Positions 1 to 55,771 of a DNA stretch of 64,000 nucleotides are shown here, in pieces. How positions within the stretch are numbered: position 1 is the stretch's first letter; every line of letters begins with the position of its first letter. The notes beneath the pieces were generated by a model. That model did not search any database and was not told the origin of the DNA. It saw only the letters and a list, made by a program, of their open reading frames with translations. This DNA comes from Sediminibacterium sp. (lineage in GTDB: Bacteria > Bacteroidota > Bacteroidia > Chitinophagales > Chitinophagaceae), in assembly GCA_017983845.1 (NCBI GenBank), contig JAGOAO010000001.1:134136-198135 (forward strand), given 5' to 3'. The translations under genes were made by a program, and so were the position numbers.

Positions 1-820
1 TGGATCCTTTTTTTTCTGTTGCATAAAATGAATTCACTAAAACAGTACCATTGGCATTATTTATTTTTAAGCGGACGTCGTCCAATAATAAACTATTGTT
101 TACAATAGGTGTCTCAATGACTTCGGATCCGTCTGCAGCCATATACAATAAACTCACTACTGGAGCAGCTTTCGGCTGATCCACGTTTCTTAAACAGAAT
201 AAATTTCCTTTATTGTCAATTGCAAAATCAGAAAGATGACTTTTTTTATTTTGTGCATTAATACTGATAGTCGCTTCGTTCAATAAACCAAAAGGTGTAC
301 TCAATGCCATGGTTTTAATTTTGATTGAAGTAGGATTCGTTGTGTTGACACTAAATAAAAGTAGTTTGGAACGATCCTGACTCTCTACTAAATTAAATAT
401 TTTATTTCCAGCACCCGGTCTAATTTTTTCGGCTGTATCTACCACAGTTGGCGTTCCTACTAATTGTGCTTTTTCATCTAATTCCGCCACCATCGCATAC
501 ACCGTTGTAGCTACTTGAAATTGATAGAATGCATAGACCCTATTGGCCTTAGTGATAAATTCTATTGCATTTAATTTTTTGGGTAAAAACGCTAAATCGT
601 TTTGTTGCACCAATTGCATTTGGTCATTGTACTGCGCAATGGTTGCAATACCCTCATTGTTTTTATAAATCCAATAACGACCATCCACTTTTCCCAATAC
701 TTCGTATTGCATCTGGTCTTTATCTGTTTTTTCAATGCCAGATAAAACATAAGATTGCGCTGCAACAACTTGCAGGCCTGCCAAAACAAAAGCGATAATA
801 GATAAAAATGATTTTAGCAT
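1..820 (-). CDS. secreted protein of unknown function, C-terminus cut by window edge
   Basis: The minus-strand frame opens with ATG at 820 and stays open for 273 codons to the left edge, so the gene is incomplete at its 3' end. The N-terminus (MLKSFLSIIAFVLAGLQ, then VVAAQS) is a typical signal peptide with a likely cleavage after Ala-Ala. The remaining visible part has alternating short hydrophobic and polar stretches, such as YVLSG, GRYWIYKNNEG, KSHLSDFAIDNKGNLFCL. This is the pattern of a secreted beta-propeller-like or repeated beta-sheet protein (inference). I do not recognise the family. It is separated from ldcA (same strand, upstream in transcription) by 48 bp, so it may be co-transcribed. 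The call as a real gene is firm; the function is not assigned. Confidence 0.75.
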   Translation of the reverse strand, partial: MLKSFLSIIAFVLAGLQVVAAQSYVLSGIEKTDKDQMQYEVLGKVDGRYWIYKNNEGIATIAQYNDQMQLVQQNDLAFLPKKLNAIEFITKANRVYAFYQFQVATTVYAMVAELDEKAQLVGTPTVVDTAEKIRPGAGNKIFNLVESQDRSKLLLFSVNTTNPTSIKIKTMALSTPFGLLNEATISINAQNKKSHLSDFAIDNKGNLFCLRNVDQPKAAPVVSLLYMAADGSEVIETPIVNNSLLLDDVRLKINNANGTVLVNSFYATEKKGS

Positions 821-6588: not shown

Positions 6589-6710
6589 AAGACAATCGTT
6601 TTTCTAGTGATAATTTGAACTATGAATTTACTTGATTTTATGTATGGTTGGTTATTTTTTACATGAATGTTTTGGACAAAAAAAACAACATGCCTACTTA
6701 ATAAAAACAA

Positions 6711-6739
6711 CAATGCCACCCGTTTATGGGGTGGCATTG
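6711..6739 (-). terminator. intrinsic terminator of nrdJ
   Basis: Read on the minus strand, CAATGCCACC and GGTGGCATTG form a 10-bp stem around a short loop, followed by TTGTTTTTATT. It lies 60 bp after the nrdJ stop and before the GMC operon. Confidence 0.85.
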
Positions 6740-6798
6740 AAAAATCATAAGAGGTTATGGTTTCGAGGCCCTACTTTTCAAAGAAAGGGCCGAGAAAT

Positions 6799-9700
6799 CT
6801 AACTGCAACCCATAGAAGTTCCACAGTTCAAACATTTGTAACAAGTACCGCTACGAATAGTGATATGTCCACAAGTGCTACATGCTGGCGCATCGCTTTG
6901 CATACTCTTTGCTGCTGCAGTGACATTGTCCATTGAACCACCTTCATTCACCGCTGCTGCTACGTTTGCTTTTGCAGCTGGAGCTGGAGTAGCAGGTGCT
7001 GTTACGCGAATGCTACTCAATTCAGGCTTTCCCACAAGGGTAATGTCTCCCTCCTCTCCCAAGTTCTCTACTGTAGGCTTGTCTAATACATGTACTAAAT
7101 CTGTTCTGCCTAAGTATTCGTATGCCAAGGCGCGGAAGATAAAGTCTACAATAGATGTAGTTGTCTTAATATTTGGATGATCCACCATTCCTGATGGTTC
7201 AAATTTCGTGAATACAAATTTGTCTACGAACTCTTCTAATGGCACACCATATTGTAAACCAACAGAGATAGAGATCGCGAAGCAGTTCATTAAGCTACGT
7301 AATGTAGATCCTTCTTTTGCTAAGTCAATGAACAATTCACCAACTGTACCATCTGCATATTCTCCAGTTCTTAAGAACAATACTTGACCGCCAATTCTAG
7401 CTTTTTGTGTAAATCCACGACGCTTCGCTGGCAAAGATTTGCGCTCAACAATACGAGACAATTGACGCTTGAACTTCGTGTCAGTAGAAGTCGCCATACG
7501 CTTTTGTACTTCTTCTAATAATTCATCCACAGTTAAGTTGCCTAAGTCTACCATTTGAGAAGCGGTTGCCTCTTCTGTAGCTTCTGCTTCTGCGCCGTCT
7601 GCTTTTTTCTTTTTATCAGATTTAGTACTCAATGGTTGGCTCAATTTAGATCCGTCGCGGTATAAAGCATTTGCTTTTAAACCTAACTGCCAGCTCATTA
7701 AATAACAATCTGCAATTTCTTCAACAGTTGCTTCATGTGGTAAATTGATTGTTTTAGAAATCGCACCAGATAAGAATGGTTGACATGCTGCCATCATTCT
7801 AATATGACCGTGTGCGTGGATATATCTAACCCCTTTTTTACCATTTTTATTTGCACAATCAAATACTGATAAATGCTCATCTTTTAATTCAGGCGCACCT
7901 TCCACTGTCATGGTACCGCAAACATAATCGTTCGCTGCATCAATTTCGTCTTCAGTGAATCCTAAAGATTCTAATAAGTTAAAGCTCCAATCTGCAAATA
8001 CTTCTTCCTTGAATCCTAATCTTGTTAAACAAGCATCACCTAAAGTGAAACGGTTAAAGATGAATCCAATTTCAAATGCAGATTTTGCTGCGCCATTTAA
8101 TTTGTCAATTTCTTCTTGTGTGAAACCTTTCGCCAATAAGCTTTTGTTATTGATATAAGGAGCACCTTCGAAGCTTGCATGACCTACTGCAAAGTTGACG
8201 ATTGCGTCTACCTGTGCAGGTGTATATTTTAAATTCTTTAATGCTTGTGGAACAGACTGGTTGATGATTTTAAAGTATCCACCACCAGATAATTTCTTGA
8301 ACTTCACCAATGCGAAATCTGGCTCAACACCTGTTGTATCGCAATCCATTACTAAACCAATGGTTCCAGTTGGAGCAATTACAGTTGTCTGTGCGTTTCT
8401 GTAACCATATTTTTCACCTAATTGAACTGCGTCATCCCAAGCTTTGGTAGCCGCTTTCAATAAGTAGTCAGGTGTGAATTGTGCCTTGATACCTTGTGGC
8501 TTGATTTCTATACCTACATAAGCATCTTCTGCATCATAAGCAGCCGCACGGTGGTTACGCATTACACGTAACATGTCTTCCTTATTCTCTTGATATTTAT
8601 CAAATGTGCCTAAGAATGAAGCCATCTCTGCAGATGTTTTGTAAGCAATACCTGTCATGATCGCAGAAATTGCACCGGCAATACCACGTGCTTCTTCACT
8701 GTCATAAGCAATACCACTTACCATTAACATAGAACCTAAGTTGGCAAAACCTAAACCTGTAGTTCTATAGTCATAAGATAATTGTGCAACTTCTCTAGAA
8801 GGGAACTGCGCCATTAAAATAGATACTTCTAAAACAGTCTGCCATAATCTTGTAGTATATTCAAAACCTTCAACGTCGAATGAGTTATCAGACTCGTCAA
8901 AGAATTTTCTCAAGTTAATAGAAGCCAAGTTACATGCTGTGTTGTCTAAGAACATGTACTCAGAACATGGGTTAGATGCATTGATACGGCCACCTTGAGG
9001 ACAAGTATGCCATTCGTTGATGGTAGTGTCATATTGTGTACCAGGATCCGCACAACGCCATGCAGCATTTGCAATTTGCTCCCACACTTCTCTTGCTGGA
9101 ACTGACTTCATTACACGACCATCGGTACGCGCGATTAAATCCCAGTTGCCATCTTCAGACAATGCTTTAAAGAAGCTATTTGGAATACGAACAGAGTTGT
9201 TTGAGTTTTGACCTGAAACAGTTGCATACGCTTCTCCTTCATATCCGTTATCATATCCTGCAGCTACCAATGCAGCTACCTTATCTTCTTCCTGTACTTT
9301 CCAGTTGATGAATTCTAAAATTTCTGGGTGATCTAAATCTAGACAAACCATTTTAGCAGCACGACGTGTTGTACCACCAGATTTGATTGCACCAGCGGCG
9401 CGGTCACCAATTTTCAAGAAGCTCATCAAGCCACTTGAAGAACCACCACCAGATAATTTTTCGTTTGCTCCACGAATTTGAGAGAAGTTCGTACCTACAC
9501 CAGAACCGTATTTGAAAATTCTAGCTTCTCTTGTCCATAAGTCCATGATACCACCCTCGTTTACTAAATCATCGCTCACACTCAAGATAAAACATGCGTG
9601 TGGTTGTGGACGCTCGTAAGCACTTGTAGACCTTTTCAATTGCTTATCCTTAGGATCTACATAATAGTGTCCTTGTGCGCCACCAGTAATACCATAGCTC

Positions 9701-47293: not shown

Positions 47294-50200
47294 TTAGTTT
47301 TTAAAGGAAATGATTCTTAAGCTATCGGAATTCATCCCCAATACATATGCTTGTTGTTGATTCAATTGAATAGACGCAATTTTTCTTACCTGCCCTTTAA
47401 TACTTAAACCATTCAAGGGTGCTGGTTTGAATTCTTGTTTTCCAGTATTGATTAAAAGTGTGCCATAGTCTGCATCATACCTGCCCATTTGTACATTGTT
47501 GTCGTAGAAATTACCCATCATTAAAATGTCAGGCCACTTGTCTCCATTGGCATCAAGCGTAACAGCCGCTTTGTATGCGGTGATTTGGGCCTCCCAAGGC
47601 AATACTTTGGCCGTGAATTGCCCCTTGCCATCATTGATGAATAATGTATTTGCAAAATGATACGCACGCACCACACTGGAAGACTTTAATTTTTCCTTTG
47701 TAAAAATGTCATACAAATTTGCTTTCGCAAAGTCTTCCGCATATAAGAATGATTTTTTAATTTTAGGAATCTGTCTTTGAATTTCATCTTTATTGGCAAA
47801 TGGAATTTCCTTGCCTTGCAAATAAAAAGTGATGATTTGTTCAAACTTCCCATTGTCATCAAAATCATTGTAATACATACTGATTGGCTCTTTCTCAGTC
47901 GCTTTTAATCTTGTATTTAACCCTAGATTGCCCGCTATAAAATCCATGTCACCATCTAAATCGATGTCAATAGGCAGCGTGAAATTCCACCATCCTGGCA
48001 AATTTGTAACAGTCACTTTCTTCCATTTTTTCGCAGATGGATATAAAACATCTATACCGCCCCATTGATGCGTTAATAAAATTTCTAATTTGCCATCTTT
48101 GTCGATATCTATTTCTGTTGCATTTGTAATGAATCCAATACCTAACAAATCGGGTGCAACACTTGCTGTAACGTCTTTAAAATGTCCGTCGCCCGTATTG
48201 TACAATAAATAACTATCAGTTGGGGCGCCATAATCCATCGCAGTAACCCTACTCGTAATCAAAAGGTCAATAGCTCCGTCTTGATTGAAGTCTCTAGCAA
48301 TCATGGATGAGCTTTGATTGTAAACAGGGATTGCATCTTTTAATACACTGAACTGACCACTTGCACTATTTAAGTAAACTCTTGGCATCATGTGCTTGTC
48401 TTTTCCAAAATATTCATTTCCGCCGGAGCCTACAATAATGTCTTGAAGTCCATCTTTATTCACATCTACCATCACAGAATAAACATCTTCATAATTGCTA
48501 TCTACTCTAAATGCTTCTTGTTTAGAAAGTATAAACTTGCCGTTAGATTGTTGTTGGTATAGTGCCGCGCTGAACCCTCTAGCGCCACCAATAAAAATAT
48601 CTTCTAATCCATCTTTGTTGATATCCCCCACTGACAAAGCTGGACCTTCCGTTGAATTCATCTGAGGGATTAATTGCTCCCTGTTAAATTCTTGGAAAAT
48701 ATTTTCTTGATGCTTAAAACGAATGCCTGAATTAGCTGTAAGGTCTATCGCTTGCTTGGTTGTCTGTGGCCAATGCTGGTTGATTAAATTATAATCAAAC
48801 TTTGGCAAGCCAATTTGATAGGAATAAACCAATTCTTTTTTCTTAAAATCTTTCGGGTTAATTTTTTGACTTGTATTATCTGGCCATACCAAGTATGCTG
48901 AATCTACTATTGCGCCTTTTAATCCAATGGATAATGGAACTTCCATGCTTGACAAAAATCCTTTAACAGGAAACTTTTCATAGGTTCTGATTTCGCCTGG
49001 TGTAAATAAAACCAATTTCGCTCCAATGGCGTTGATGTTTTTAGCGGCCCCTTTCAATGAAACCGATACAGCATGCGCTGCGGTATCTTGATTCGTTTTG
49101 TTTTCGTAAATAAAGGATTTGTCATTCACATTATTGACCACCAAATCTAAATCACCATCATTATCAAAGTCTGCGTAAGCAGCACCATTTGAATAAGAAG
49201 ATGGATTGTTTACAATCGCCTTTTCTTTGTCATCGAATGACAAGCCTTTTTTATTTAAAAAGAACTGGTTCGGTATTTTGATTTCAGGGAAACGATCTAT
49301 GAGCGCCATATCCTTTTCTCCCATTTTATTATCCCTAATTTTTTCCTGAATTTCCTGATTGGACACGTAGTTCACATAATCCATATCATTCATTCGCTTT
49401 GGTATGCCATTGGCAATAAAAATATCCTTATAACCATCATTGTCAAAATCCATTAAGAGTGTTGCCCATGACCAATCAGTTGCAAACATTCCTGAATACA
49501 TTCCTACTTCACTAAACTTACCGTTGCGTCGATTCCATTGCAAATTATTACGCGTAAACTGATAGTCGTATCCTACCGAAATTTTATATTGAAAGATATC
49601 GTAATCATCCTCACCTAGAGACCTTTTTAAAATATAAGGATCCTTTGGCAACATATCCATAGAGACAATCTCAGGAAACCCGTCGTTGTTTAAATCTGCA
49701 GCGTCAACCCCCATGGAGTATTGACTGGTATGCATGAGTCTTTCTTTTTGCTCGTCTTTGAAGCTGCCGTTTTTTTGATTAATGTATAGATAATCATTTT
49801 CATGAAAATCGTTACCAGCATAAATGTCTACCCATCCATCTAAATTAATATCACTCATCACCACGCCTAAACCATAACTAATTGCCGTGCTATTGATTTT
49901 GGAAGCCTTGGTTACATCTTCAAAATGGCCATTGTTATTGGCAAAAATACGATCACCAGATAGTGGATCAAATGTACCCATGAAACTTGTTCTGGGTGCA
50001 AAAGTGCCATTCTGATGTACCGAATGGTTCAATAAGAATACATCTAAATCGCCGTCCTGATCGTAATCAAAGAAACTTGCTTGCGTACTAAAGCCAGAAA
50101 AATCTAAACCATACTCAGCAGCTGCTTCTTTGTATGTAGGAATTCCATTTTCAATTGTTTGACAAACCAATAGTTGGTTCTTTGATACAAACTTTTCAAA

Positions 50201-50629
50201 ATTTCCTAGTCTACAAATATAAATGTCCAATAGTCCATCGTTATTGATATCCACTACAGACACCCCTGTATTCCATGCGCTATCCTGAGGAATCTGGGCC
50301 TGCTTGCTCACTTCTTCGAATTGCAACTTGCCCTTATTTAAATACAACTGATTATCGCCCTCATTGGAAGCAAAAAAGATATCCGCCTTTCCATCATTAT
50401 TAAAATCCCCCGTTGCGACTCCTGCTCCATTGTAATAATACATATAATGAAACATATTGAATTGCTCATTGGGATGCAATTTGTTTTCAAATTGAATACC
50501 TGTCTTTTCCGCTGTTAAAGCTTCAAACAAAGGTGCTTCCTTGGTTGACTTATTGCATGCAAGCAATATTGTACCCGATGCCAAAATGGACAGGATCAGC
50601 TTGATGCTATTGGTATATTTGAACAACAT
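47294..50629 (-). CDS. FG-GAP/VCBS repeat and ASPIC/UnbV lipoprotein (CRTAC1-like), paralogue 2
   Basis: A very large (1111-residue) lipoprotein; IKLILSILASGTILLACNKS supplies the lipobox Cys. Many repeats carry the calcium-loop consensus D-x-[ND]-x-D-G-x-x-D, for example GDFNNDGKADIFF, VDINNDGLLDIYI and SDINLDGWVDIYAGND, which build one or two beta-propellers. Between the repeat blocks at about 540-640 is an ASPIC/UnbV module (GAKLVLFTPGEIRTYEKFPV, GFLSS, YLVWPDN). Such proteins sit on the cell surface of Bacteroidota and often lie with susCD, but the exact role is unknown. It is 4 bp after its paralogue and is surely co-transcribed. Confidence 0.88.
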   Translation of the reverse strand: MLFKYTNSIKLILSILASGTILLACNKSTKEAPLFEALTAEKTGIQFENKLHPNEQFNMFHYMYYYNGAGVATGDFNNDGKADIFFASNEGDNQLYLNKGKLQFEEVSKQAQIPQDSAWNTGVSVVDINNDGLLDIYICRLGNFEKFVSKNQLLVCQTIENGIPTYKEAAAEYGLDFSGFSTQASFFDYDQDGDLDVFLLNHSVHQNGTFAPRTSFMGTFDPLSGDRIFANNNGHFEDVTKASKINSTAISYGLGVVMSDINLDGWVDIYAGNDFHENDYLYINQKNGSFKDEQKERLMHTSQYSMGVDAADLNNDGFPEIVSMDMLPKDPYILKRSLGEDDYDIFQYKISVGYDYQFTRNNLQWNRRNGKFSEVGMYSGMFATDWSWATLLMDFDNDGYKDIFIANGIPKRMNDMDYVNYVSNQEIQEKIRDNKMGEKDMALIDRFPEIKIPNQFFLNKKGLSFDDKEKAIVNNPSSYSNGAAYADFDNDGDLDLVVNNVNDKSFIYENKTNQDTAAHAVSVSLKGAAKNINAIGAKLVLFTPGEIRTYEKFPVKGFLSSMEVPLSIGLKGAIVDSAYLVWPDNTSQKINPKDFKKKELVYSYQIGLPKFDYNLINQHWPQTTKQAIDLTANSGIRFKHQENIFQEFNREQLIPQMNSTEGPALSVGDINKDGLEDIFIGGARGFSAALYQQQSNGKFILSKQEAFRVDSNYEDVYSVMVDVNKDGLQDIIVGSGGNEYFGKDKHMMPRVYLNSASGQFSVLKDAIPVYNQSSSMIARDFNQDGAIDLLITSRVTAMDYGAPTDSYLLYNTGDGHFKDVTASVAPDLLGIGFITNATEIDIDKDGKLEILLTHQWGGIDVLYPSAKKWKKVTVTNLPGWWNFTLPIDIDLDGDMDFIAGNLGLNTRLKATEKEPISMYYNDFDDNGKFEQIITFYLQGKEIPFANKDEIQRQIPKIKKSFLYAEDFAKANLYDIFTKEKLKSSSVVRAYHFANTLFINDGKGQFTAKVLPWEAQITAYKAAVTLDANGDKWPDILMMGNFYDNNVQMGRYDADYGTLLINTGKQEFKPAPLNGLSIKGQVRKIASIQLNQQQAYVLGMNSDSLRIISFKN

Positions 50630-50633
50630 AAGT

Positions 50634-53600
50634 TTATTTTAATTTCATGAATACCGGAACCTGATTGTTTCTAATAAACAAGATCCTTTTTTGAGTAGCC
50701 TGTTGAAACAATACCATATCCCTCACTTGGCCTGTAATAGCCAAGCCAGTTTGCTTATCCTCTACCACTTCAAGTACTCTTTTTCCTTTATTGATTAAGA
50801 CCAGTCCATAGTTGGCGTCTAAACGACCAAACTGAGGAAGAAATCCAAATTGATTGCCGCCCATGACTAAATCTGTTTTCCCATCTGCATTCACATCTGT
50901 ACTTACCATGGCGTTTAAAGAAGAAAATTGAACTTCGTTTGGTAAACGTTGAATGTCAAACTGACCATTCCCTTTGCCCCATGCAATGATTGAACTGGTA
51001 TAGTTGTACAATTTCATGGTTGCTTTTTCGATTAACTCTTTTTTAAACAATTCTTGGAATGCTTTTTTCGCATAGATTTCGTAATTCAGGTTTTCTTTTT
51101 TGAGTAATGGGATTTGCTCTTGCATCTCCCCTTTTAAAAACACAGGCACATCTCTGCCATTGATTGTTCTTGTTAAAATTTTATCGATACTTTCATTCCC
51201 ATCAAAATCATTGATCCATAATTTAACTGGTGCAGCTGGGTTGGGTTTTAAATATCCATTCTCCCCCATATTGCCCATGATTAAATCCTGGAATCCATCT
51301 CCATCTATATCAGCCATCTGAATCGTCTGCCACCAACCAAACATGTCTTTTAAATTAGACGCCTGCTCTACCATCTTCCCTTTGCTAAAAGCATATACCA
51401 TTGGATACATATATTCACCTACCACTACTAAACTTGGTTTACCCTGCTTGTTTACATTCCCCCAAACTGCACTGGTTACCATACCTAGTTTTGTAAAATC
51501 TGGTGCCACTGTAGAAGTGACGTCTTTGAATAGACCAAATCCATTGTTCTGATACAATGCACTTGCTGGCGTCACGCCATACTTTAAAGGCGTATTTCGA
51601 GCACCCACAAATACATCTAGGTCTCCATCCGAATCGTAATCCAATGGCACTATTACGCCTGTATTGTACTCGAATACAGGAAATGCATTGGCACTATATG
51701 CAAAATTGGCTTTGCCGTCATTTAAGAACAGTCTATGATTTAATTCTCCTCTTGTAGACAAGCGGTTATTACCCCCAGATCCCACCAATAAATCCATATC
51801 TCCATCTTTATCCGCATCCAAGAAAACAGCAGCAACATCTTCATAAGATTCAAATGCCTTAAATGAAGCCTGCGGCTTTGGATTAAAGTCCCCATTGCTA
51901 GTTTGCAGGTAGATTTGACTTCCCTTATTATTAGCCCCCCCAATAAATAAGTCAGCTAATCCATCTCCGTTGATGTCTGCAGTCGCTGCTTTAGGTCCTT
52001 CTTGAGACAGGATTCTTGGAATAATTCTTTCTGCATAAAAGTCCACATGATCATCCTCTGTATGTTTTTCGAAATTGGCTTTTACCTCCTCAAACAAAGG
52101 CGCAACTTTTTCTTGTACCACTACAAAAGGCTTTACAATTTGCTTTGCTTGTTCAATCGCATATACGGTGTCTAGCTTTTGTACTTTTAAAATACTTTGT
52201 GTTAGGTTCGGCCAAATCACTTGGATCGAATCAATTTTTTTAAATTGCCCTAAACCGAATATTTGCTTGTAGTCCACAGAAGACTGAAACCCTCTCGCTG
52301 GGATGACTTCCTTACTTAAAATCTGTCCCTGCACAAATACATTGATTTTCGCACCCACCGCATTCACATTCTGCGGCAAGCCTTTTAATTTGAATCCAAT
52401 GTATCCGTTTTTATTTTTCTCTCTACTTTTATTTTTAAACACAAAACTTGGCATGTTGTTATTGTTCACTACCATATCCAAATCCCCATCATTGTCTAGA
52501 TCGCCGTATGCTGCGCCATTTGAAAAACTTGGTATATCCAATCCCCAGTCCTTCCCCATGTCCTTAAAAGTTAAATCACCATTGTTCCTAAACATTTTAT
52601 TGGGAATGGGCTGACTGCTCATTTTTTCAATGATGCTACTGATTTCGTCTTTCTTGCCTGATAAGACCATTTTTTGAATCATGGTATTCGCAAAGAAATC
52701 AATAAAGTCTTGATTGGTTAGATCTCGATAAATGCCATTGCTTACATAAATATCATTGTACCCATCATTGTCCGCATCAAAAATCATTTCCCCCCAACTC
52801 CAATCACTTGCTTCCACGCCTGAAAAACGAGCTACTTCTTTATACTTGCCATTCTTGTTGTTTAACTGCAATGCATTATGCATGAACTGATGATAAAAAC
52901 CACTCGCTACTTTTAAACGATAAATATCAATATTGTCAAATGAACTAGTTGTCTTTAATCTAAAGTCATTGTCGGGCAACATTTCTGTAGTAAAAATATC
53001 AGGATAACCATCATTATTAACATCGGCCATGTCGGTACCCATGGAAGCGATACTATTGTGCTCGGTATAATTTTCAATCTCGTCTTTGAATGTGCCGTTT
53101 TTTTGATTGATGTATAAGTAATCTCTTTCAAAAAAATCATTCGATACATAGACGTCTGGCCAAGCATCTCCATTCACGTCTCCAATAGTTACTCCTAATC
53201 CAAAACTAATTAAAGTGCCATGTATTCCTGCTTCTGCAGAAACTTCCTTAAACTTACCCCCTTCGTTTTTATATAAATGATCGCCACCGCCTTTTAAGAA
53301 ATCGGCCACATCTGAATTTTCAGCTCTTATATCTCGCGCATTGGCATAGTTCAAAGTGTTTACAGGAATAGGACTATTGTTGACCATGAAACAATCTAAA
53401 TCACCATCCATGTCGTAATCAAAGAAAGAAGCATGTGTGGTATAGCCATTGTTCGCTAAGCCATAAGCTTCTGCACTATCCGTAAATGTTAGATCATGGT
53501 TATTGATGAACAATTGATTTTTGCGCAGGTCTTCCTGCATCATATGCCCTGCATTGGCTACATAAATATCTAACCAACCATCGTTATTGATATCCACCAT

Positions 53601-53939
53601 CGTTACTCCTGTACTCCATTGTTCTTTTTTGGGAAACCCTGCTTTATCAGAAATATCCTCGAATTTAAAATCACCTTTATTGAGGAATAATTTATTTGCG
53701 CCTTGATTGGCTGTAAAAAATACATCCGCTAACCCGTCATTATTGATATCACCAATACCTACACCGCCCCCGTTGTAAAAATTACGGTACTTAAAAATAT
53801 TATTGTCTTTTTCGTCTGTCACCGTATTGGTGAATTGGATCCCACTATTTTCTACTTGTTCAAAAAGCTGACCATCTTTTGACTTTGTACAAGCCATAAA
53901 AATAAAAGGAACGAAAAGTAGGAAGCATATTTTTTGCAT
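50634..53939 (-). CDS. FG-GAP/VCBS repeat and ASPIC/UnbV lipoprotein (CRTAC1-like), paralogue 1
   Basis: A 1101-residue lipoprotein with the same layout as the next gene: signal MQKICFLLFVPFIFMACTKS, FG-GAP repeats (IGDINNDGLADVFFTANQ, VDINNDGWLDIYVANAG, FDYDMDGDLDCFMV), a central ASPIC/UnbV module (GAKINVFVQGQILSKEVIPA; RGFQSS) and a second repeat block. The two clearly come from a tandem duplication and have diverged widely. The frame is open through the hairpin array to 54077, but those residues are not signal-like; the ATG at 53937-53939 gives a good lipoprotein signal and is the start. It is downstream of susC-susD, from which the hairpin array separates it. Confidence 0.88.
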   Translation of the reverse strand: MQKICFLLFVPFIFMACTKSKDGQLFEQVENSGIQFTNTVTDEKDNNIFKYRNFYNGGGVGIGDINNDGLADVFFTANQGANKLFLNKGDFKFEDISDKAGFPKKEQWSTGVTMVDINNDGWLDIYVANAGHMMQEDLRKNQLFINNHDLTFTDSAEAYGLANNGYTTHASFFDYDMDGDLDCFMVNNSPIPVNTLNYANARDIRAENSDVADFLKGGGDHLYKNEGGKFKEVSAEAGIHGTLISFGLGVTIGDVNGDAWPDVYVSNDFFERDYLYINQKNGTFKDEIENYTEHNSIASMGTDMADVNNDGYPDIFTTEMLPDNDFRLKTTSSFDNIDIYRLKVASGFYHQFMHNALQLNNKNGKYKEVARFSGVEASDWSWGEMIFDADNDGYNDIYVSNGIYRDLTNQDFIDFFANTMIQKMVLSGKKDEISSIIEKMSSQPIPNKMFRNNGDLTFKDMGKDWGLDIPSFSNGAAYGDLDNDGDLDMVVNNNNMPSFVFKNKSREKNKNGYIGFKLKGLPQNVNAVGAKINVFVQGQILSKEVIPARGFQSSVDYKQIFGLGQFKKIDSIQVIWPNLTQSILKVQKLDTVYAIEQAKQIVKPFVVVQEKVAPLFEEVKANFEKHTEDDHVDFYAERIIPRILSQEGPKAATADINGDGLADLFIGGANNKGSQIYLQTSNGDFNPKPQASFKAFESYEDVAAVFLDADKDGDMDLLVGSGGNNRLSTRGELNHRLFLNDGKANFAYSANAFPVFEYNTGVIVPLDYDSDGDLDVFVGARNTPLKYGVTPASALYQNNGFGLFKDVTSTVAPDFTKLGMVTSAVWGNVNKQGKPSLVVVGEYMYPMVYAFSKGKMVEQASNLKDMFGWWQTIQMADIDGDGFQDLIMGNMGENGYLKPNPAAPVKLWINDFDGNESIDKILTRTINGRDVPVFLKGEMQEQIPLLKKENLNYEIYAKKAFQELFKKELIEKATMKLYNYTSSIIAWGKGNGQFDIQRLPNEVQFSSLNAMVSTDVNADGKTDLVMGGNQFGFLPQFGRLDANYGLVLINKGKRVLEVVEDKQTGLAITGQVRDMVLFQQATQKRILFIRNNQVPVFMKLK

Positions 53940-53973
53940 AAAATCGGGTTCTTGTAGTAAGTCATAAAAATAC

Positions 53974-53999
53974 AAAAAGGCCGTGGTAAACCACGGCCT
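53974..53999 (-). terminator. terminator A of the hairpin array
   Basis: Read on the minus strand: AGGCCGTGG, loop TTTA, CCACGGCCT, then TTTT; 9-bp perfect stem. It lies 35 bp before the start of the first FG-GAP gene. Confidence 0.8.
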
Positions 54000-54056
54000 A
54001 AAATCATAATAGTTGTTTCCGGGGAGGTTTATATTTTTTAAAACCTTCCTAGAAAC

Positions 54057-54082
54057 AAAAAGGCCGTGGTAAACCACGGCCT
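54057..54082 (-). terminator. terminator B of the hairpin array
   Basis: Sequence identical to terminator A, including the preceding ACTATTATGATTTT, 83 bp upstream in the array. Confidence 0.8.
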
Positions 54083-54137
54083 AAAATCATAATAGTTTGT
54101 TGTCAGGAGCTTTAAATTCTATAAAGCTCCTGACAAC

Positions 54138-54166
54138 AAAAAGGCTGCCGTAAACGGCAGCCTTTT
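54138..54166 (-). terminator. terminator C of the hairpin array, directly after susD
   Basis: Minus strand: AGGCTGCCG, loop TTTA, CGGCAGCCT, TTTT. Same design and loop as A and B with a different stem; preceded by CTATTATAGAAA, similar to the linker of the others. It ends 30 bp after the susD stop. Confidence 0.85.
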
Positions 54167-54196: not shown

Positions 54197-55771
54197 CTAG
54201 TAACCGAAGTTTTGCTTCAAATTAGGGTTTGAAGACACCGCTTGGTTAGGGATAGGGTAAACTACTCTGAAAGCATCAGACTTTGCAGCTCTTTCGTTTA
54301 CTGGATCGTTGTACTTTCCGAAACGGATTAAATCTGGACGTCTAACAGCTTCTAAGTATAATTCACGACCTCTTTCAGCTAAGATATCGCTCAATGTTAC
54401 AGCAGTTAATGCTGGTGCACCAGAACGAGCTCTAACGCTATTTACGATAGAAAGTGCAGTTTCACCGCCAGTAGCAGTACCACCTCTTAAGATCGCTTCT
54501 GCTTTCATCAATAACGCATCAGCGTAACGGAAGAACACATAGTCGTTTTTACCATTGAATGAATTGCTGCTTGCTACATACTCCATAGGATATTTCATTG
54601 TTCTGATACCCTTAGATTCTGTAGAGAAGAATAAAGATACATCAGGAGTGAATACTAAGTCAGAACCAGAACGGTCTTTAACTTTAACTCTAACACCATT
54701 TGTATATTTATATTGTTGACCTGCTAAGAAACCAGCATTGAAACCAGTTAACTCAGTGTAGCCAGCGATATCAGATTGTCTTCTTTTATCCACTTCTGGG
54801 AATGAATTGTAGAAATCAGCAGTAGTAGTGAAACCGTTCCAACCAGAGAAAGTTTGGTTGTAGTGCGTTCCCATACCAGTATACCAGTTTACATTGATTG
54901 TTCCACCTAATTGAGTAGCGCCATCGCCACCTCTAGAGTAGATCATCTCAGTAGACTTTGTGTGGTTGTCCCATACAAAGTTATCCCAGTAATTAGCAGA
55001 TAAAGAGAATTTACCGCTAGCTGTGATTGCATCCACCATTGCAATTACTGAATTCATATCAGCTGCTGCATGTGTGAAAGTAGTTGGTGCTTTAGGATCT
55101 GCTTTATAAACAGCCTTATTCAACATTAAACGAGCTTTCAAGAATTGAGCAGCTTGTTTTGTTGCTTTACGGCTATCAGTAATTGTAGCATTTGAAGGCA
55201 ATGCAGCAATAGCAGCATCTAGATCAGTCATGATCCAGTCAAAAGCTTCAGATCTTGTTTTTACTGCAGGGATAACATCTGGGCCATCAGCAGCAGCACG
55301 GTAAGGTACTTGACCAAACACGTCCATTACCTGAGTTGCTAAGAATGCTCTTAAGAACTTTGCAGCAGGTTGGTCAGCAGCAGCGCCTTTTTCAGCAACC
55401 AAAGTCGCTTTAAAAAGACCACCGTTTAAACCATTCCAAGTATCGAATAATTGATTGTGCGCTCCATCTACTGCATGTAAATGGATTTTTCTCCAAGTAC
55501 CGAAGTCATCCCAGTCAGTACCACGAGTTGGTCCAAGTAATTCGTCTGTAGAATGCTCTTGTAAAGCATACCAGTTTCCTTGGCCCATCAAAGCGTTTGT
55601 TGCATCATATACAGATGCAAGATTCGCAGAAGCTTCTCCGGCAGAAGATGCAGCTGCAATAGATTTAGATCCAAACACTTTCTCGTCTAATTTAGAACAA
55701 GAAGCTGCACCCAAACTCACTGCGATAGCAGCGGTATAGATTGCTGTTTGTTTGATGAAATTATTTTTCAT
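54197..55771 (-). CDS. SusD/RagB-family nutrient-binding outer-membrane lipoprotein
   Basis: Surface lipoprotein that binds the glycan or other ligand for its SusC partner. In 524 residues the signal is KQTAIYTAAIAVSLGAASCSK (Cys25 lipobox). The SusD start DEKVFG and the long helical TPR-like region (FLRAFLATQVMDVFGQVPYR near 140) follow. The C-terminal SusD domain has YVFFRYADALLMKAEAILRG, AERGRELYLEAVRRPDLIRFG and the final PIPNQAVSSNPNLKQNFGY. It is 20 bp downstream of susC. The ligand cannot be told from the sequence; the linked LacI regulator and sugar-phosphate mutase suggest a sugar. Confidence 0.95.
   Translation of the reverse strand: MKNNFIKQTAIYTAAIAVSLGAASCSKLDEKVFGSKSIAAASSAGEASANLASVYDATNALMGQGNWYALQEHSTDELLGPTRGTDWDDFGTWRKIHLHAVDGAHNQLFDTWNGLNGGLFKATLVAEKGAAADQPAAKFLRAFLATQVMDVFGQVPYRAAADGPDVIPAVKTRSEAFDWIMTDLDAAIAALPSNATITDSRKATKQAAQFLKARLMLNKAVYKADPKAPTTFTHAAADMNSVIAMVDAITASGKFSLSANYWDNFVWDNHTKSTEMIYSRGGDGATQLGGTINVNWYTGMGTHYNQTFSGWNGFTTTADFYNSFPEVDKRRQSDIAGYTELTGFNAGFLAGQQYKYTNGVRVKVKDRSGSDLVFTPDVSLFFSTESKGIRTMKYPMEYVASSNSFNGKNDYVFFRYADALLMKAEAILRGGTATGGETALSIVNSVRARSGAPALTAVTLSDILAERGRELYLEAVRRPDLIRFGKYNDPVNERAAKSDAFRVVYPIPNQAVSSNPNLKQNFGY

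Follow-up and report, generated by a model that had tools for sequence, protein, structure and literature searches.

Tandem intrinsic terminators, in which at least two U-tailed hairpins stand in series after a gene, are found at bacterial 3' ends, and strong terminators raise the abundance of the upstream transcript (PMC11696848). Stabilising hairpins and terminators of 3' untranslated regions (3'-UTRs) likewise place strong hairpins right after the coding region, REP/REPIN elements are short intergenic palindromes present in many copies and in tandem clusters (PMC3116915), and small RNA (sRNA) systems include terminator-ended RNAs from the end or the middle of a transcript. The hairpin array of Sediminibacterium sp. 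described here resembles each of these systems in the respects just named. It differs from tandem terminators in what lies between the terminators, where the constant feature is a conserved linker plus a hairpin that is not itself a terminator and whose loop is conserved, and from stabilising 3' hairpins in its conserved loop and linker sequences and genus-wide recurrence, which suggest specific recognition, stabilisation itself being a predicted role. Unlike those of REP/REPIN elements, its stems have no repeated sequence, and its copies are orthologues in different species that follow the orientation of the upstream gene; compared with sRNA systems, it showed neither a promoter nor a free variable seed.

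The array between susD and the FG-GAP genes

The array occupies positions 53974-54166 of the window (the whole 64,000-nucleotide stretch of DNA that was analysed) and reads, on the minus strand, T1-H1-linker-T2-H2-linker-T3, where T is an intrinsic terminator and H a long hairpin. On its 5' side lies a gene for a SusD/RagB-family lipoprotein (54197..55771, minus strand, stop at 54197; ORF of 524 aa, Pfam SusD_RagB, 1.5e-25), and on its 3' side a gene for an FG-GAP/ASPIC-UnbV lipoprotein (50634..53939, minus strand, ATG at 53939 from the translation; Pfam FG-GAP_3, 5.5e-72, and UnbV_ASPIC, 2.2e-15), after which comes a second FG-GAP paralogue (47294-50629). T1 (54139..54166, core 54143-54162, minus strand; AAAAGGCTGCCG-TTTA-CGGCAGCCTTTTT) was identified as an inverted repeat with a T-run and in the fold, and is T-tailed on the plus strand too. 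H1 (54096..54140, minus strand) is an inverted repeat of 19 perfect pairs, with fully (100%) complementary arms at 54122-54140 and 54096-54114 and a 7-nt A/T-rich loop. The first linker copy, ACTATTATGATTTT (54083..54096, minus strand), which is conserved among 11 species as well as elsewhere in these genomes, leads into T2 (54061..54082, core 54062-54081, minus strand; AGGCCGTGG-TTTA-CCACGGCCT followed by TTTTTG). H2 (54013..54058, minus strand) has an imperfect stem, with arms at 54041-54058 and 54013-54030 that are 83% complementary, and a 10-nt A/T-rich loop; it is followed by the second linker copy (54000..54013, minus strand) and by T3 (53978..53999, core 53979-53998, minus strand). T2 and T3, found by terminator scan as well as by inverted repeat, consist like T1 of a G+C-rich hairpin and a U tract on the transcribed strand.

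The repeat coordinates confirm the original prediction that three terminators with a common TTTA loop alternate with two long hairpins at spacings of 83 and 81 nt. The two units share linker and terminator exactly, as had also been noticed, given that ACTATTATGATTTT has two exact occurrences in the window and that T2 and T3 are identical in sequence, the T1 stem being different from theirs. The 257-nt array region has a folding energy of -111.6 kcal/mol, while shuffled versions average -49.1 (z about -15). The long hairpins had been taken as unrelated sequences of the same shape; the shape holds, but alignment after adding orthologues shows that H1 and H2 are diverged copies with a common frame, GTT...AGGA...TTT-loop-AAA...TCC...AAC. 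Sequence comparison makes them two forms of one hairpin, of which most sister species retain just one.

Ten sister species, whose FG-GAP proteins are 91-93% identical, keep the array with one or two units, the layout being T-H-L-T (L, linker) at nine of these loci and T-H-L-T-H-L-T in the genome under study and at locus L006. Across the eleven orthologous loci the structure is kept and the linker is constant, while stem sequences change by compensatory mutation. Terminator stems are swapped as blocks among the sisters (GGCTGCCG, GGCCGTGG, GGCCGCGG, GGCGGGCG, GCCTGCCG and GCCTACGG) and are nearly always perfect palindromes. T2 equals T3 within each of the two three-terminator species yet differs between them, which indicates local duplication or conversion, and since L005 and L006 have their flanks and first unit in common, one unit must have been gained or lost between them. 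Some terminator loops are inverted relative to sister copies (TAAA for TTTA at L068; GCTCATTGC/GCAATGAGC at L213), a sign of recombination within palindromes. Long-range pairing between T1 and T2 was considered as a working structure and dropped, T1 and T2 being different in most sister species.

In relatives with FG-GAP proteins about 50-76% identical the junction usually contains one ordinary terminator, and large-genome relatives have a single ordinary terminator there, without the module, which is therefore not essential to these genes.

A covarying module at other loci

The repeated unit is a hairpin with an A/T-rich loop, the AU-rich linker CTNTWATGATTTT and a terminator (H-L-T). DNA searches gave weak off-locus matches in three species, behind other genes, with the same T-H-L-T layout and linker. 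Since the default RNAalifold structure (model R1) missed H, explicit structures were used instead. A covariance model of T-H-L-T (R2) produced many further matches, which revealed the smaller unit H-L-T, occurring alone or in tandem and with or without a preceding terminator. A model built from 31 copies, mostly non-orthologous (R3), gave 88 matches in the loci fetched for inspection. In the window it recovers H1-linker-T2 (54054..54138, minus strand, G000:C21:188189-188273; E 8.5e-6) and H2-linker-T3 (53971..54057, minus strand; E 4.5e-7), both of which are copies in its training set. The linker-terminator junction is confined to the two array sites in the 2.03-Mb genome under study, even with 3 mismatches allowed; the covariance models found the module at many unrelated loci.

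Among 18 sequences, 21 pairs showed two-sided change, with 93 compensatory cells against 33 in shuffles; among the 31 mostly non-orthologous copies there were 25 such pairs and 117 compensatory cells against 47 in shuffles, above every slid register. Compensatory change above background in non-orthologous copies is expected of a structured cis-acting RNA family, and together with the copies at other loci it establishes that the combination of variable stem with constant linker and terminator, seen at first in the array only, is a real repeated design. Over 84 distinct copies the H stem core has about 35-55% identity per position with pairing kept, whereas the consensus loop (TTTtataaAAtaTAAa) and linker (CtcTaATGATTTTaA) have several columns at 98-100%. 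Near-invariant positions include A27 (99%), A28 (100%) and T31 (99%) in the loop, and the linker ATGATTTT is conserved at 92-100% per column, a figure that is partly a selection effect because R2 and R3 were trained on linker-containing copies; stem covariation and genomic placement are unaffected. The linker alone was rejected as a module marker, as 1-mismatch matches to a 16-nt linker mostly had no hairpin module and many were apparently coding.

The loop sequence 5'-RRRRU is complementary, with G-U allowed, to AUUUU of the linker in 74 of the 84 copies, against 42 in shuffles. This would fit loop-linker pairing, but also a loop that is merely conserved. Likeness of T1 and T2 was 0.66 within a locus and 0.53 between loci, with a rough automatic call of T1, and a likewise rough count gave 24 of 81 loci with at least two linkers. 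Many arrays of near-identical modules are situated near contig ends (L213, at the start of G135:C13, L233, L244 and others), and true array lengths may therefore be underestimated in short-read assemblies.

No Rfam family reached its gathering score in the window and 16 other loci, with the sole exception of one tRNA elsewhere in L172. At a loose E-value there were sub-threshold leader and sRNA matches only, which look like generic terminator matches and were discarded (the highest-scoring, Phe_leader, reached 50.7 of the required 55 bits and lies on the opposite strand). A literature search for this motif found no paper. The structured RNA element of which the array is one copy had not been catalogued before.

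Host genes and distribution of the module

In 70 of 78 copies the nearest upstream gene is a sense-strand ORF, and H mostly begins either 0-7 nt or about 43-67 nt after the stop codon, a few copies lying further away; the longer class leaves room for an extra terminator. In the fetched stretch 32 of the 78 copies had no adjacent co-directional gene, the next one being on the opposite strand or missing. Hosts identified by NCBIfam or Pfam include genes for ribosomal proteins (rplT, L20; rpsU, S21; rpsA, S1; rplY, L25), infC (IF-3), fusA (EF-G), tig (trigger factor) and sucC, as well as those for aconitase, ribonucleotide reductase (RNR), peroxiredoxin, an OmpA protein and SusD, including another SusD. 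From their identity, these hosts are expected to show high expression. A module also follows a tmRNA gene (tag GETNYAMAA; L170, 1124-1494), which shows that non-coding RNA genes may be hosts as well.

The window contains a second copy (6709..6799, minus strand; R3 E 0.0056) right behind a B12-dependent RNR gene, identified from its counterpart in a relative; the upstream ORF in the window ends ...YKCLNCGTSMGCS with a gap of -1. Other copies in the same genome (G000 C55:68591, C30:104236, C47:9217, C55:65341 and C55:24594) lie behind genes for peroxiredoxin, aconitase, topoisomerase I, ribosomal protein S1 and biotin carboxylase, the topoisomerase and biotin carboxylase names having been read from the sequence only.

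Of the 147 genomes of the genus, 65 were positive for R3 at E<=1e-4, none of them larger than 2.6 Mb, and some small genomes were negative under this strict filter. With laxer filters (E<=0.01), 22 small genomes chosen for earlier R2 matches carried 2-16 copies each, and 13 large-genome members of the genus (3.1-4.5 Mb) gave no match. In a sample of the family (394 genomes, 101 genera) the three positives all belonged to this genus, and in a sample of the class (395 genomes) the genome under study was the sole positive, so that the family and class samples, about 780 genomes in all, contained no module in other genera. Across these samples the module is lineage-specific, restricted to small-genome relatives of Sediminibacterium.

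Proposed roles in termination and insulation, and alternative readings

We consider it reasonably likely that the array is a tandem-amplified form of a structured 3'-UTR module, specific to this lineage, that terminates transcription and protects the mRNA. Each unit, as RNA, would stop transcription at its own terminator, and the stacked hairpins would protect the upstream message (here susCD) at its 3' end, with the constant loop and linker probably contacting each other or a common RNA-binding factor or nuclease. Repetition of the unit would then give near-complete termination and a tougher 3' end, and would separate susCD from the FG-GAP genes.

Transcription signals around the modules bear on this reading. 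No promoter of sigma-A type (TTTG-17..23-TAnnTTTG) was found in any of the 84 module regions, taking for Sediminibacterium the -7 consensus TAnnTTTG of Flavobacterium (PMC9723704), and this motif is rarer in these regions than in shuffles (5 against 11.5), which excludes internal promoters as far as the consensus allows. Between T3 and the FG-GAP start there is a promoter-like box, GTATTTTTAT (53964..53973, minus strand), matching the pattern GTAnTTTTAY, which occurs in 23 of 43 orthologous FG-GAP upstream regions, against 0.3 by shuffling, a count that overstates independence because these regions are related; distant orthologues have the box too, and it was found in 0 of 87 cases after other modules. 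The pattern lies about 35 nt before the FG-GAP ATG and resembles the Bacteroidota -7 element with its last G changed to A. It suggests that the FG-GAP gene probably has its own transcription start, in which case the array may mainly insulate.

The alternative that survives best, which we nevertheless regard as rather unlikely, is a graded intra-operon attenuator, in which FG-GAP transcription would depend entirely on read-through from susCD and a series of three leaky terminators would keep the ratio of large lipoproteins to SusCD low. The susD and FG-GAP genes are indeed co-directional and about 260 nt apart, a terminator stands between them in nearly all orthologues examined, distant ones included, and the number of units varies between species. 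The box after the last terminator suggests instead a separate start, and the module follows many unrelated genes, among them many housekeeping genes, irrespective of the direction of the next gene. The graded stop of the original prediction may exist but is not required to explain the array, and insulation or a role at the 3' end is no less likely.

Miniature mobile or recombinogenic palindromes (REP/MITE-like DNA elements) favouring sites behind genes would account for palindromic, intergenic, partly tandem copies, for the inverted loop at L068 and for copies near contig ends, but we think such an origin very unlikely. Instead of one highly similar palindrome throughout a genome, as in REP/REPIN families, the copies within a genome lack common arm sequences, their stem differences are compensatory, and most copies face the same way with respect to the upstream gene. 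Many module positions recur between species (for example rpsA, sucC, rplT and rplY), which points to vertical inheritance.

Tandem sRNA genes, each with a variable stem and a constant terminator, were the main idea of the original prediction, and a stem-loop with a U-tailed terminator is sRNA-like, the stems being variable as a targeting part could be. This idea finds no support, since consensus promoters are lacking inside the modules and most copies lie directly behind genes; moreover, the stems are largely paired and leave little free seed, and it is the unpaired loop and linker that are constant between loci. sRNAs might be cut from mRNA 3' ends, although for RNAs acting in trans as a whole, whether from their own genes or processed, we see slim prospects. 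That ordinary terminators were multiplied by replication slippage with a functionless H and linker would suit the fast turnover of unit number and stem sequences and the local identity of T2 and T3, but is the least probable, as neutral decay would break stems that here diverge yet stay paired, around a loop and linker constant across unrelated loci.

Within the favoured reading of a 3'-UTR module for termination and protection, a more specific and decidedly tentative proposal from the sequence pattern is that the loop 5'-RRRRU and the linker 5'-AUUUU fold together into a pseudoknot, whose core may be a U-A-rich triple helix and which would block 3'-to-5' exonucleases or recruit a clade-specific RNA-binding protein.

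To our knowledge, little is known about the control of mRNA 3' ends and stability in Bacteroidota. The module provides a defined covarying motif that lies behind core genes in one lineage of small genomes, where roughly 2-16 copies were detected in each; its absence from the tested large-genome members of the genus allows direct comparison, and the motif gives a way to find a protein or nuclease that may read it. Hairpin arrays that resemble sRNA clusters may be 3'-UTR modules, and the pseudoknot, if true, would represent a hitherto unknown class of element protecting bacterial 3' ends, found across housekeeping mRNAs of small-genome freshwater Bacteroidota.
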